Source: Spongiibacter sp. IMCC21906 (GTDB taxonomy: Bacteria; Pseudomonadota; Gammaproteobacteria; Pseudomonadales; Spongiibacteraceae). Taken from it: DNA of 64,000 bases. Shown in pieces: positions 7,608-29,249 of this stretch (the stretch's first letter is position 1; the number at the start of each line of letters is the position of its first letter). The stretch lies in contig NZ_CP011477.1 of assembly GCF_001010805.1 (NCBI RefSeq), positions 682,001 to 746,000 on the forward strand, written 5' to 3'. The notes below the pieces were generated by a model, which worked only from the letters and a program-made list of their open reading frames with translations, made no database searches and was not told where the DNA came from. Both the position numbers and the translations under genes were made by a program.

Positions 7608-7808
7608 ATGGAATCCCCAACGTCTCTAAGTGCGCGATTGCTGGAATTACAGCGTAAGCATCGCTCATTGGACGAAGAAATAAAGCTACTTTCAGACAAC
7701 CCTTATCAAAATCAGCTGCTGTTGCAGCGGCTTAAAAAAGAAAAGCTGCGGCTGAAAGACAATATCAGCTGGATAAAAAACGCATTGATTCCCGATTTAG
7801 ATGCCTAG
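7608..7808 (+). CDS. DUF465 (YdcH-like) small coiled-coil protein
   Basis: A 66-residue charged protein. The pattern LLELQRKHRSLDEEIKLL followed by QRLKKEKLRLKDNI is the DUF465/YdcH signature, predicted to form a short helical hairpin or coiled coil. The function is unknown. It lies just upstream of the GacA-type box and the small RNA gene at 7.9 kb. Confidence 0.85.
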   Translation: MESPTSLSARLLELQRKHRSLDEEIKLLSDNPYQNQLLLQRLKKEKLRLKDNISWIKNALIPDLDA

Positions 7809-7828: not shown

Positions 7829-7846
7829 TGTGAGATATGTCTCACA
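7829..7846 (+). promoter_or_regulatory. GacA/UvrY-type upstream activating box
   Basis: TGTGAG-N6-CTCACA, an 18-bp perfect palindrome in its outer six bases. It matches the GacA box of rsmX/Y/Z and csrB promoters (TGTAAG-N6-CTTACA, with R/Y variation at the fourth position). Its centre is about 65 bp upstream of the predicted RNA start, the usual position for these UAS elements. GacA binding here is inferred. Confidence 0.75.
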
Positions 7847-7889
7847 AGGCCTGTAGGGAATGTCGCCTATTAAGTATTTGTGCCTAGGG

Positions 7890-7895
7890 CATAAT
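7890..7895 (+). promoter_or_regulatory. -10 element of the Rsm-like RNA gene
   Basis: CATAAT, one mismatch from TATAAT, located 7 bases before the predicted start at about 7903. No good -35 box lies 17 bp upstream, as expected of an activator-dependent promoter driven from the palindrome at 7829-7846. Confidence 0.6.
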
Positions 7896-7902
7896 AGCCG
7901 CT

Positions 7903-7991
7903 GTCAGGAAGACCTCGGCGCGCAATGGATTGCGTGCGACACAAGGAAGTCTTAAACATTAAAAGCCAGAGCATTGCTCTGGCTTTTTTTT
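7903..7991 (+). ncRNA. Rsm/Csr-type CsrA-sequestering small RNA, short form
   Basis: An RNA of about 88 nt begins GTCAGGA, like Pseudomonas RsmY. It has three GGA motifs: 7907-7909 in a GTC-AGGAA-GAC mini-hairpin; 7927-7929 in the TGGA tetraloop of an 8-bp stem (7918-7925 with 7930-7937); and 7945-7947 in the single-stranded ACAAGGAAG. It ends in a strong terminator (AAAAGCCAGAGC, loop ATT, GCTCTGGCTTTT plus U-run, 7961-7991). GGA in loops or linkers is the binding signature of CsrA/RsmA/RsmE, which such RNAs titrate. With the upstream GacA box this is a complete Gac/Rsm RNA gene, smaller than most known ones. No CsrA gene lies in this window. Confidence 0.8.
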
Positions 7992-8048
7992 CGCCTGAAT
8001 TCCCCGTATTCTCCGCTGCTCCCTGTTTTGATGCAGCCAGTCTTCCAG

Positions 8049-8852
8049 ATGACCAACAAAGATCGTAGTTTTGACGGATTAAGTCAGCGGTTTCGTAAAA
8101 ATATTTACGATAGCCCCAAGGGACAGCTGCGGCTGGCCTTGTGCTGGCGGGAATTGTTGGAGCAGCTTCCTGGCTTGAAAGGCGAGGCGCCGTTACACAT
8201 TTGGGATGCCGGTGGTGGCTTGGGGCAGATGAGCCTGCGCTTGGCAGAGTTAGGTCATCAATTACTTTACAGTGACCTTTCGGGTGAAATGGCAGACGGC
8301 TTTACACTGGAGCTAGCCAGTCATTCTGCGGCGGAGAGGGTGACGGTTCTTCAGCAATCGATTCAGGACGTGGCTGCACAGCAAGCTATGGCTGGGCGAT
8401 TTGATGTCATCGTCTGTCACGCTGTGTTGGAATGGGTCGAGGACGGGCCGGCTTTGCTGGCAGCGCTCAAACGTTGCCTGAAACCTGGTGGTGTATTGTC
8501 GCTGATGTTTTATAACCTCAATGCCTTGGTGTTGAGCAATATTGGCAAGGGCAATCTCTATAAGCTTCGGGACGAGGCTTTTGCGGGGCATCCGGGGAGT
8601 TTCACGCCGCCTTCGCCCCGGCGACCCCACGAAGTTATTGATCAGCTACAGCAGCTGGGCCTTGAGGTGCAGGCCAAGCGGGGTATACGTTTGGTTTATG
8701 ACCTAATGCCACGGGCCATTCGCGATGCCCGTAGCTACGACGATGTCGAGGCCATCGAATGGCAGTATGGTGCTCAGGAACCCTTTTGGGCCCTTGGTCG
8801 CTATGTGCATGTGTTGTGCAAAAATACGCTGCACAAAACGAGCAGCGACTAA
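8049..8852 (+). CDS. cmoM: tRNA 5-carboxymethoxyuridine methyltransferase CmoM
   Basis: A 267-residue class I SAM methyltransferase. The N-terminus DRSFDGLSQRFRKNIYDSPKGQLR closely follows E. coli CmoM (formerly SmtA). The SAM-binding glycine loop is WDAGGGLGQM and the acidic strand end is YSDLS. CmoM methylates the cmo5U34 carboxyl group in tRNA wobble positions. The start at 8049 is chosen by homology; an in-frame ATG at 8031 is possible. The reading frame stays open upstream into the sRNA terminator, but that part cannot be coding. It probably depends on terminator read-through or an unseen promoter. Confidence 0.88.
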   Translation: MTNKDRSFDGLSQRFRKNIYDSPKGQLRLALCWRELLEQLPGLKGEAPLHIWDAGGGLGQMSLRLAELGHQLLYSDLSGEMADGFTLELASHSAAERVTVLQQSIQDVAAQQAMAGRFDVIVCHAVLEWVEDGPALLAALKRCLKPGGVLSLMFYNLNALVLSNIGKGNLYKLRDEAFAGHPGSFTPPSPRRPHEVIDQLQQLGLEVQAKRGIRLVYDLMPRAIRDARSYDDVEAIEWQYGAQEPFWALGRYVHVLCKNTLHKTSSD

Positions 8853-27622: not shown

Positions 27623-27706
27623 AATGTGTCTTCTCCCTCGATTCTAAATCGCCTCTATTTGTCGTTTGACCTGCTATTGTCGCCCTGTTAATGTTGCGGC
27701 CTCTTT

Positions 27707-27905
27707 CAGGTGTCCTGCTTGTGGTTCTTCGCAGTGGGATTAAACGGGAAGTTGGTGAGCGGCTGTTATGCAGCGCAAATCCAACGCTGCCCCCGCAACG
27801 GTAAGTGAGTGCAGGGTGATCTCATGCCACTGTATCTTCGGATATGGGAAGGTGATCACCTCGGGTTTTTTGCCCACTCATAAGCCCGGAGACCGGCCTG
27901 ATATT
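27707..27905 (+). promoter_or_regulatory. Cobalamin (AdoCbl) riboswitch
   Basis: Hallmarks in order: an AGGTGTC opening, TTAAACGGGAAGTTGGTG, AATCCAACGCTGCCCCCGCA followed by ACGGTAAG (the B12 box region) and the closing AAGCCCGGAGACCGGCCTG. The last part (GACCGGCCTG, ending near 27900) can pair with CAGGCCGGTT near 27929-27940, a plausible expression platform. It precedes cbiD by about 230 bp and should shut off the corrin-ring operon when cobalamin is plentiful. Confidence 0.93.
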
Positions 27906-28133
27906 AAGCCGAGCGTTGCGGTGGGCGACGACAGGCCGGTTGGATTCTTCACTGGTGCTTGTTCCGCTTCGTCCGCCGCCTGTTATCCCTGTTTACCGCA
28001 CGCCTGTATTTAGTTTCGCCAAAGCGCGAGCTAACAGGGAGTTGTACATCGTGTGTAAACAGTATTCTCTTAACTTGGTTTATCCCACGTTTCACTTTTC
28101 GCCGCTGTCTTTTTGTTAGGGTTGCTGGCGAAT

Positions 28134-29249
28134 ATGTCTGCCCCCAGCTTGCGCCCAGAAACAACAGAAAATAATGGCACACTACGAACGGGTTTAACCA
28201 CTGGCGCCTGCGCAACGGCGGCGTCGTTGGCGGCTGCACGCTTGCTGCTTCAAGGCCAGCATACCGAGGCCGCGCGAATTCGCCTGCCCAGAGGTGAGTT
28301 TAGAGAGTTACTTATCGCTGACTTGCAGTTAACGGCTAATGCCGCACTGGCTGCGGTAATTAAAGATGCCGGTGACGATCCCGATGCGACGCATGGCGCC
28401 CGGCTGTGGGTAAAACTCCAGCTAAAAGCGGAACCCGGCGTGGCGTTCTTGGCTGGCCAAGGGGTGGGAACGGTCACCCGTAAAGGATTGGTATTGCCGG
28501 TAGGCGAGCCCGCGATAAACCCGGTGCCTCGACAGATGATAGTGGCGCATTTGCAGCAACAGGCGATGGACGCCGATTACCAAGGCGGATTTTTGGTGAC
28601 GGTGGGTATCGACAACGGCGAGCGTATTGCGCTGCGAACCATGAATGGTCGCCTGGGCATCGTCGGTGGTTTGTCGGTGTTGGGGACCACGGGCATTGTT
28701 CGTCCTTTTTCCTGTTCGGCCTATATCGCCTCAATCCACCAGTCCATCGATGTTGCTAACGCAAATAAGCTGCAAAGAATTGCGGCTTGTACGGGCGGCA
28801 CGAGCGAGGCTTACGCTCAGCAAAGATTTAATTTATGTGATGCCGCTATTGTGGAAATGGGCGACCTGTTTGGTGCCGTGCTCAAGTATCTGCGCCGTCA
28901 CCCTGTACCCGCGCTTATCCTGGCGGCGGGCTTTGGCAAACTCACTAAATTCGCCGCCGGACATCTGGATACCCACAGCCGCCGGTGCGCGATTGATTTT
29001 CCGTGGCTGGCGGAGCAGGCCATGTTGCTGAACGGTGACGAGGTTCTCCGAGAACAAATTCTGCAATCCAATACCAGTTTGCAAGCCCTGAATTATTGCC
29101 AGCAACAGGGTGTGCCGTTGGCAGAGCATATCGCCTTGAAGGCTGTCCAGGTGGCGCGTCGCTATCTTCCCCAGTCTATTGCCTTAGAGGTGTGTGCTGT
29201 CGATCGGCAAGGCAAATTGCTTGCCTATGTCGGTGAGGCATGTCAGTGA
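28134..29249 (+). CDS. cbiD: Cobalt-precorrin-5B / precorrin C1-methyltransferase CbiD
   Basis: A 371-residue methyltransferase whose N-terminal LRTGLTTGACATAASLAAA is the CbiD signature; GIVGGLSVLGTTGIVRPFS lies in mid-protein. It adds the C1 methyl group of the corrin ring. In the classical aerobic pathway this step is done by CobF; here CbiD appears with the aerobic enzyme CobG, as in Pseudomonas. The ATG at 28134 is preferred to TTG 28113 by alignment. First gene behind the cobalamin riboswitch. Confidence 0.93.
   Translation: MSAPSLRPETTENNGTLRTGLTTGACATAASLAAARLLLQGQHTEAARIRLPRGEFRELLIADLQLTANAALAAVIKDAGDDPDATHGARLWVKLQLKAEPGVAFLAGQGVGTVTRKGLVLPVGEPAINPVPRQMIVAHLQQQAMDADYQGGFLVTVGIDNGERIALRTMNGRLGIVGGLSVLGTTGIVRPFSCSAYIASIHQSIDVANANKLQRIAACTGGTSEAYAQQRFNLCDAAIVEMGDLFGAVLKYLRRHPVPALILAAGFGKLTKFAAGHLDTHSRRCAIDFPWLAEQAMLLNGDEVLREQILQSNTSLQALNYCQQQGVPLAEHIALKAVQVARRYLPQSIALEVCAVDRQGKLLAYVGEACQ

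Follow-up and report, generated by a model that had tools for sequence, protein, structure and literature searches.

RNAs of the Rsm/Csr type are sponges for CsrA, which binds GGA in hairpin loops, one dimer bridging sites that lie 10–63 nt apart; ANGGAN is the loop type bound by RsmE, and the SELEX consensus for CsrA reads RUACARGGAUGU (PMC7652899; partial text, here and below). In the same source, McaS and GadY are described as base-pairing RNAs. RsmX-type RNAs carry six GGA motifs, two to four of which are exposed, and RsmX-2 works with three predicted exposed GGA (PMC7911923, partial text). RgsA, with one GGA, did not titrate RsmA, and its control by GacA was judged to be indirect (PMC2375449). 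The csrB gene of E. coli has a UvrY-bound sequence, TGTGAGAGATCTCTTACA (PMC4682653, partial text). A machine-learning prediction set for RsmA-binding RNAs has also been published (PMC5568370, partial text).

Here, we describe a locus of Spongiibacter sp. IMCC21906 that very probably specifies another such sponge: an 89-nt RNA, predicted to be activated by GacA and to sequester CsrA. It lies in a stretch of 64 kb, the whole of which is called the window.

A Putative 89-nt RNA Gene behind a GacA-Type Box

The features of the locus are collected in Table 1. A search of the 64 kb with TGTRAGN6CTYACA returned TGTGAGATATGTCTCACA as the sole match (shuffling the sequence 100 times gave 0.00 matches on average); this is the perfect palindrome, TGTGAG-N6-CTCACA, to which the initial sequence-only reading had drawn attention. 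The putative RNA starts with GUCAGGA, 56 bases past the box, which places the box centre some 66 bases from +1. That reading had also put a −10 element 65 bp on: CATAAT is indeed present, but a distance of about 65 fits the interval from box centre to +1 and not that from the box to the −10. The tetranucleotide TAAT occupies the −10 place in 17 of the 18 genomes of the genus, with TTAAAT in the other (G001). We saw no good −35 upstream of the RNA, as expected for an activator-dependent promoter, and a simple promoter/terminator scanner called neither a sigma-70 promoter nor a terminator at the locus.

Table 1. Features of the RNA locus and its surroundings (positions in the window)
Feature	Position	Strand	Evidence
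DUF465 gene, upstream context	7608..7808	+	Pfam PF04325, 48.8 bits
GacA/UvrY-type palindromic box TGTGAGATATGTCTCACA	7829..7846	.	sole match in the window, 0 expected
Putative −10 element CATAAT	7890..7895	+	sequence
Rsm/Csr-type small RNA (putative), 89 nt	7903..7991	+	predicted 5′ end; model R1, 90.3 bits
Hairpin 1, GUC-AGGAA-GAC, GGA 7907–7909	7903..7913	+	covariation, RNAalifold consensus
Hairpin 2, 8-bp stem, loop UGGA, GGA 7927–7929	7918..7937	+	covariation
Hairpin 3, GAC-ACAAGGAA-GUC, weak, GGA 7945–7947	7938..7951	+	alignment, fold
Predicted intrinsic terminator, 12-bp stem into U run	7961..7991	+	fold, compensatory changes; scanner silent
CmoM-like methyltransferase gene, downstream context	8031..8852	+	NCBIfam CmoM NF008264, 223.7 bits

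The location between a DUF465 gene and cmoM, as first read, is well kept: the DUF465 gene lies 5′ of the RNA in all 18 genus genomes and a CmoM-like gene lies 3′ in 16 of them (exceptions: G004 and G010). NF008264 is the best NCBIfam match of the CmoM-like protein, with a score under the cut-off of 366. In G004, the ORF in the place of cmoM (L008 1850–3175) encodes a protein with a long run of GGATDD-type repeats. Elsewhere in the window, a cobalamin riboswitch (27691–27915, + strand, 100.4 bits) is found ahead of ORF 28113–29249, which we take to resemble a CbiD-type cobalamin gene.

The segment folds as four hairpins, the last of which is the predicted terminator. The stem of hairpin 1 consists of only three pairs. 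The first description, an RNA of about 88 nt starting with GTCAGGA and ending in a strong terminator, agrees with the length and start found here and with the 12-bp stem running into a U tract in the fold. All three of the GGA motifs that it listed are present, one in the UGGA loop on the 8-bp stem and one in a mini-hairpin, but the GGA that it took to be single-stranded also lies in a mini-hairpin: the first GGA is enclosed within GUC-AGGAA-GAC, so that all three are in loops. The GGA-to-GGA distances, 20 and 18 nt, fall inside the bridging range of 10–63 nt (PMC7652899). Folding of positions 7890–8000 beats all 200 shuffles (z = −3.34); with these flanks, the 5′ end pairs past the terminator and hairpin 1 is not formed. 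A coding reading was discarded: the sole ATG within the RNA (AUGGA) appears as AUGGA in five, ACGGA in 11 and AAGGA in two of the 18 sequences.

Conservation across the Genus

With a DNA search, 16 of 38 relative genomes gave any match at all, several of them in the terminator only. Fourteen sequences were then used to build a covariance model (R1), which finds one strong place per genome in 18 out of 18 (Zhongshania/Spongiibacter/Neomelitea), with 81.9–105.9 bits, the next-best matches reaching at most 41.1 bits. The four genomes outside the training set (G001, G002, G007 and G010) score 81.9–92.7 bits. The conservation of GGA motifs, stem and palindrome in relatives, on which the sequence-only reading had staked its case, was found on each count: the three GGA are invariant in 18/18 sequences while adjacent loop bases vary (alignment columns 4, 8, 25, 42 and 43), the structure shows compensatory changes, and the box stands 56–57 nt before +1 in all 18 genomes. 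Twelve of these have an exact box, and the remaining six keep 9–11 of its 12 defined bases. The gap to +1 was chosen freely between 50 and 63, the best score being taken; it came out as 56 in 14 genomes and 57 in four.

In the 18-sequence alignment, 98.4% of 448 structure cells are paired and eight of 25 pairs have changed on both sides; none of 500 shuffles reached as high a value on any of five measures. RNAalifold, run on the 14-sequence alignment without a supplied structure, arrived at these four hairpins too, giving three pairs to hairpin 3. Hairpin 1 is paired in 100% of its cells, and one of its pairs has changed on both sides, from GC to AU in G001. Hairpin 2 (97.9% of cells paired, two doubly changed pairs) reads ANGGAN in 18/18. 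Hairpin 3 is paired in 94.4% of cells; none of its pairs has changed on both sides, and four of the 18 sequences have a broken top pair. Of the 18, 14 have ACANNGGAUGU in this hairpin, the source-genome copy being among those that do not. The terminator stem has five doubly changed pairs among the 10 tested.

A scan of named genomes with an alignment-derived pattern gave 15 stretches. Nine belong to Zhongshania, Spongiibacter and Neomelitea and score 86.6–105.9 bits with R1; the other six (Actinomycetes, Lachnospiraceae, Bacteroides and similar) have no R1 match up to an E of 1, and we consider them chance. Among 11 loci with weak R1 matches (at most 41.1 bits), eight looked like terminators, four of them behind tRNA genes (by eye), and were rejected; one is a paralogue (L044) and one a sister-genus RNA (L042), both described below. 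One R1 match in the window, of 27.6 bits on the opposite strand, overlaps the terminator palindrome.

Relation to Rfam Families and RsmY

None of the 4227 families of Rfam release 15 reached its gathering score in 7829–7991. Permissive matches (MicC, 20.9 bits where 90 are required, and four others) were taken as chance. In the comparison with Rfam models proposed at the outset, no family, RsmY included, matches the 89-nt RNA; the RsmY model does match in three relatives of the order. These came to light in a search of 390 order genomes, 17 of them of the genus, for the box followed 45–70 nt on by GTCAGG. The pattern occurs in 16 genomes, with control columns at zero: 11 are of this genus, three have RsmY and two something else. 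Genus genomes were missed where box or start is not exact. The three RsmY score 91.1–95.2 bits with Rfam (gathering score, 57), and their gap from box to GUCAGGA is 59. On reading, the order-level matches L071 and L072 did not resemble RNAs of this kind.

A Second Putative Small RNA on the FKBP Side

A second RNA was traced from the weak R1 match in G014 (41.1 bits). A DNA query from that genome located it in the source genome at C1:244833–244960 (L121 1510–1637; 128 nt), between an SDR-type gene and a convergent FKBP-type gene (names by eye). We read this place in 21 family genomes and, among the 18 that belong to the genus, saw the RNA in 14 (L126–L143); the contig of G003 breaks off too close to the FKBP-like gene for reading. 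A model built from the 14 sequences, R2, finds it in 15 of the 18, including G003, where it lies on another contig and outside the model. At an E of 0.01, R2 has no match in G004, G009 and G010, nor in any of the three sister-genus genomes.

The second RNA starts with GU(C/U)A(A/G)GGAUG(A/G)C, which folds into a GGA-bearing hairpin; another, GGUGC...ACANGGA(U/C)GU...GCACC, comes after it. Both GGA are kept in 14/14. In G002, the second hairpin has AUACAAGGAUGU, in agreement with the SELEX consensus given above at 12 of 12 positions. The best-scoring box-like sequence lies 55–56 nt before the start in all 14 (gap free between 50 and 63), with 6–11 of the 12 defined bases. The case for the second RNA is weaker in the source genome, where the box has six of these bases, with no more than its right half preserved, and where the first hairpin is missing from the minimum-energy fold. 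No double change was seen in the second RNA: its stems hardly vary, and its structure is thus without support from covariation. R2 gives a marginal match on the 89-nt RNA (13.5 bits, E 0.031), in keeping with a shared design.

Putative RNAs of the Sister Genus and Other Palindromes

In the sister genus, the same locus appears to encode longer RNAs. An exact box precedes cmoM in G019 and is followed, after 53 nt, by a 158-nt RNA (L042 1431–1588) with six GGA before its terminator, five of them within GAACGGA or GAATGGA repeats; four of the six are unpaired in the minimum-energy fold. In G018, a box with one departure stands before cmoM, and the RNA, its 5′ end guessed, is about 150 nt (L113 ~1284–1433), and carries four GGA ahead of its terminator, of which three are unpaired. 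The third genome, G020 (70% complete), gave no cmoM match. No Csr-type Rfam family was named for the RNA of G018 in a gathering search or for that of G019 in a permissive one, and the G019 RNA as a DNA query had no match in the other genomes of the 21. Loci of cmoM-like genes from five other families of the order were each searched with a pattern, and none showed a box.

The family genomes hold 11 further TGTRAGN6CTYACA palindromes outside the RNA locus. Seven of these were read, including C1:1928289 of the source genome, and were set aside, as no GGA-rich RNA was seen behind them; the other four have 18 bases identical to those of two that were read. An identical palindrome, TGTAAGTTCATCCTTACA, occurs on either strand in six genus genomes (G003, G005, G006, G009, G016 and G017), and the places read (L058, G009:C1:1689371; L091, G017:C18:90439) look coding by eye, with no GGA-rich RNA.

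CsrA, GacA and the Proposed Switch

Both protein partners are encoded in the source genome. The GacA gene adjoins uvrC, and its product scores 293.1 bits with the UvrY/SirA/GacA family model (cut-off 280). CsrA scores 116.2 bits with NCBIfam CsrA (cut-off 73), and the gene before csrA is aspartokinase-like by eye. The protein aligns over 57 residues with chain 1y00, and both L4, which we take to be an RNA-binding residue, and R44 are identical in the two. R44 is described as an RNA-binding residue of CsrA (PMC7652899). A second csrA-like frame, with one in-frame TAG, is present on contig C2 (L088 5719–5868, + strand); this small contig of 12,685 bases is plasmid-like, and ORFs resembling ParA, resolvase and TraD by eye lie close to the frame.

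The comparison of genomes establishes the gene with its hairpins and invariant GGA, the near-fixed spacing of the box, and that CsrA and GacA are both encoded; from these sequence data, we infer that the RNA is transcribed in dependence on GacA and that it binds and titrates CsrA. In the proposed course of events, GacA-P would bind the palindrome at about −66 and switch on an otherwise weak promoter, so that the 89-nt RNA is made. Its three GGA hairpin loops would hold CsrA dimers, CsrA would be drawn off mRNA leaders and its control relieved, and the second, smaller RNA of this design would add two more sites. With the single GGA of RgsA insufficient and three exposed GGA working in RsmX-2, three sites are plausible for a sponge by analogy, near the lower end.

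Since cmoM comes next in 16 of the 18 genus genomes, as well as in both sister-genus genomes where it was found, the RNA could instead be a cis-acting leader or attenuator that uses its terminator and GGA sites to govern how far transcription continues into the methyltransferase gene. We hold this to be very unlikely, however, given the strong terminator stem and the paralogue, which precedes the convergent FKBP-like gene and not cmoM. Moreover, the next gene in G010 is a convergent globin-like ORF (named by eye) and in G004 another ORF, while the RNA there still scores 86.6 and 90.3 bits, respectively, with R1, so that a role as a mere leader of cmoM does not fit.

A U-tailed terminator also suits Hfq, and the RNA might be a GacA-regulated, base-pairing small RNA of the Hfq type, with GGA as its seed in place of CsrA sites. 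RNAs under GacA control that leave RsmA untitrated are known, RgsA among them (PMC2375449). We nevertheless give this reading just as slight a chance, as the GGA triplets are invariant in three loops while neighbouring bases vary, and recur in dissimilar hairpins of the paralogue as well as in the RNAs of the sister genus. Least likely of all, and close to negligible, is that no RNA is made, the palindrome being the site of a cmoM regulator and the stem merely the terminator of a DUF465 operon: the pattern scanner finds no promoter, but conservation spans the whole 89 nt with compensatory changes, and at two unlinked loci the spacing between box and +1 motif hardly changes.

A CsrA sponge under GacA control, as we propose the 89-nt RNA to be, would be a putative Gac/Rsm output RNA for a marine family in which we saw none described among the open-licence full texts listed; these showed no such RNA for Spongiibacter or Zhongshania. 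It would be near the lower limit for a dedicated CsrA sponge. The suggestion that it is a minimal, undescribed member is upheld as to its small size and the lack of an Rfam match, but it does not stand alone, as the genome has a further small RNA built on the same plan. We see roughly even chances that the Gac/Rsm switch of the genus runs on these two very small sponges, with some five GGA hairpins together (3 + 2), and not on many-site RNAs like those of Pseudomonas and the enterics, the sister genus having a longer, GGA-richer RNA at the same locus. The genus may have further RNAs without a recognisable box. If the switch does work with two tiny sponges, it would put to a natural test the minimum number of sites for a dedicated CsrA sponge: 15 of the 18 genus genomes have the natural pair and, given also the size difference from the sister-genus RNAs, natural variants are at hand for finding out how many GGA titration requires. 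Wherever they were compared with Rfam, both small RNAs stayed below the gathering scores; Rfam-based annotation will thus miss both, while R1 and R2 find them in 18/18 and 15/18 genus genomes, respectively.

Comparison with Known Systems

RsmY (RF00195) shares with the 89-nt RNA the GacA box, the GUCAGGA start, GGA motifs and a terminator (predicted here), as well as a similar gap (59, compared with 56 here). It differs in that its model has 121 positions, whereas the RNA described here has 89 nt and three GGA and is not matched by that model.

RsmX-1 and RsmX-2 of Pseudomonas are likewise short, GacA-dependent RNAs (a dependence predicted here), RsmX-2 having 110 nt and three exposed GGA (PMC7911923, partial text). 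They have six GGA in total against three here.

CsrB and CsrC resemble the present system in having upstream a palindrome with a TGTGAG half-site, to which UvrY binding was shown (PMC4682653, partial text), and in their CAGGA-type loops (PMC7652899). They carry 22 and 14 GGA motifs (PMC11882849, partial text), in contrast to three, and the palindrome of csrB is far upstream, at −183, compared with about −66 here.

McaS, GadY and similar CsrA binders also have few GGA motifs; they are reported to have one, two or none and to bind CsrA much more weakly (PMC11882849, partial text). That the RNA is smaller than RsmX/Y/Z or CsrB and has fewer GGA, as first noted, is borne out: with 89 nt and three GGA, it has the fewest among the described members cited. 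It combines the same parts as known Rsm/Csr RNAs and would presumably work in the same way, at the small end of their range.
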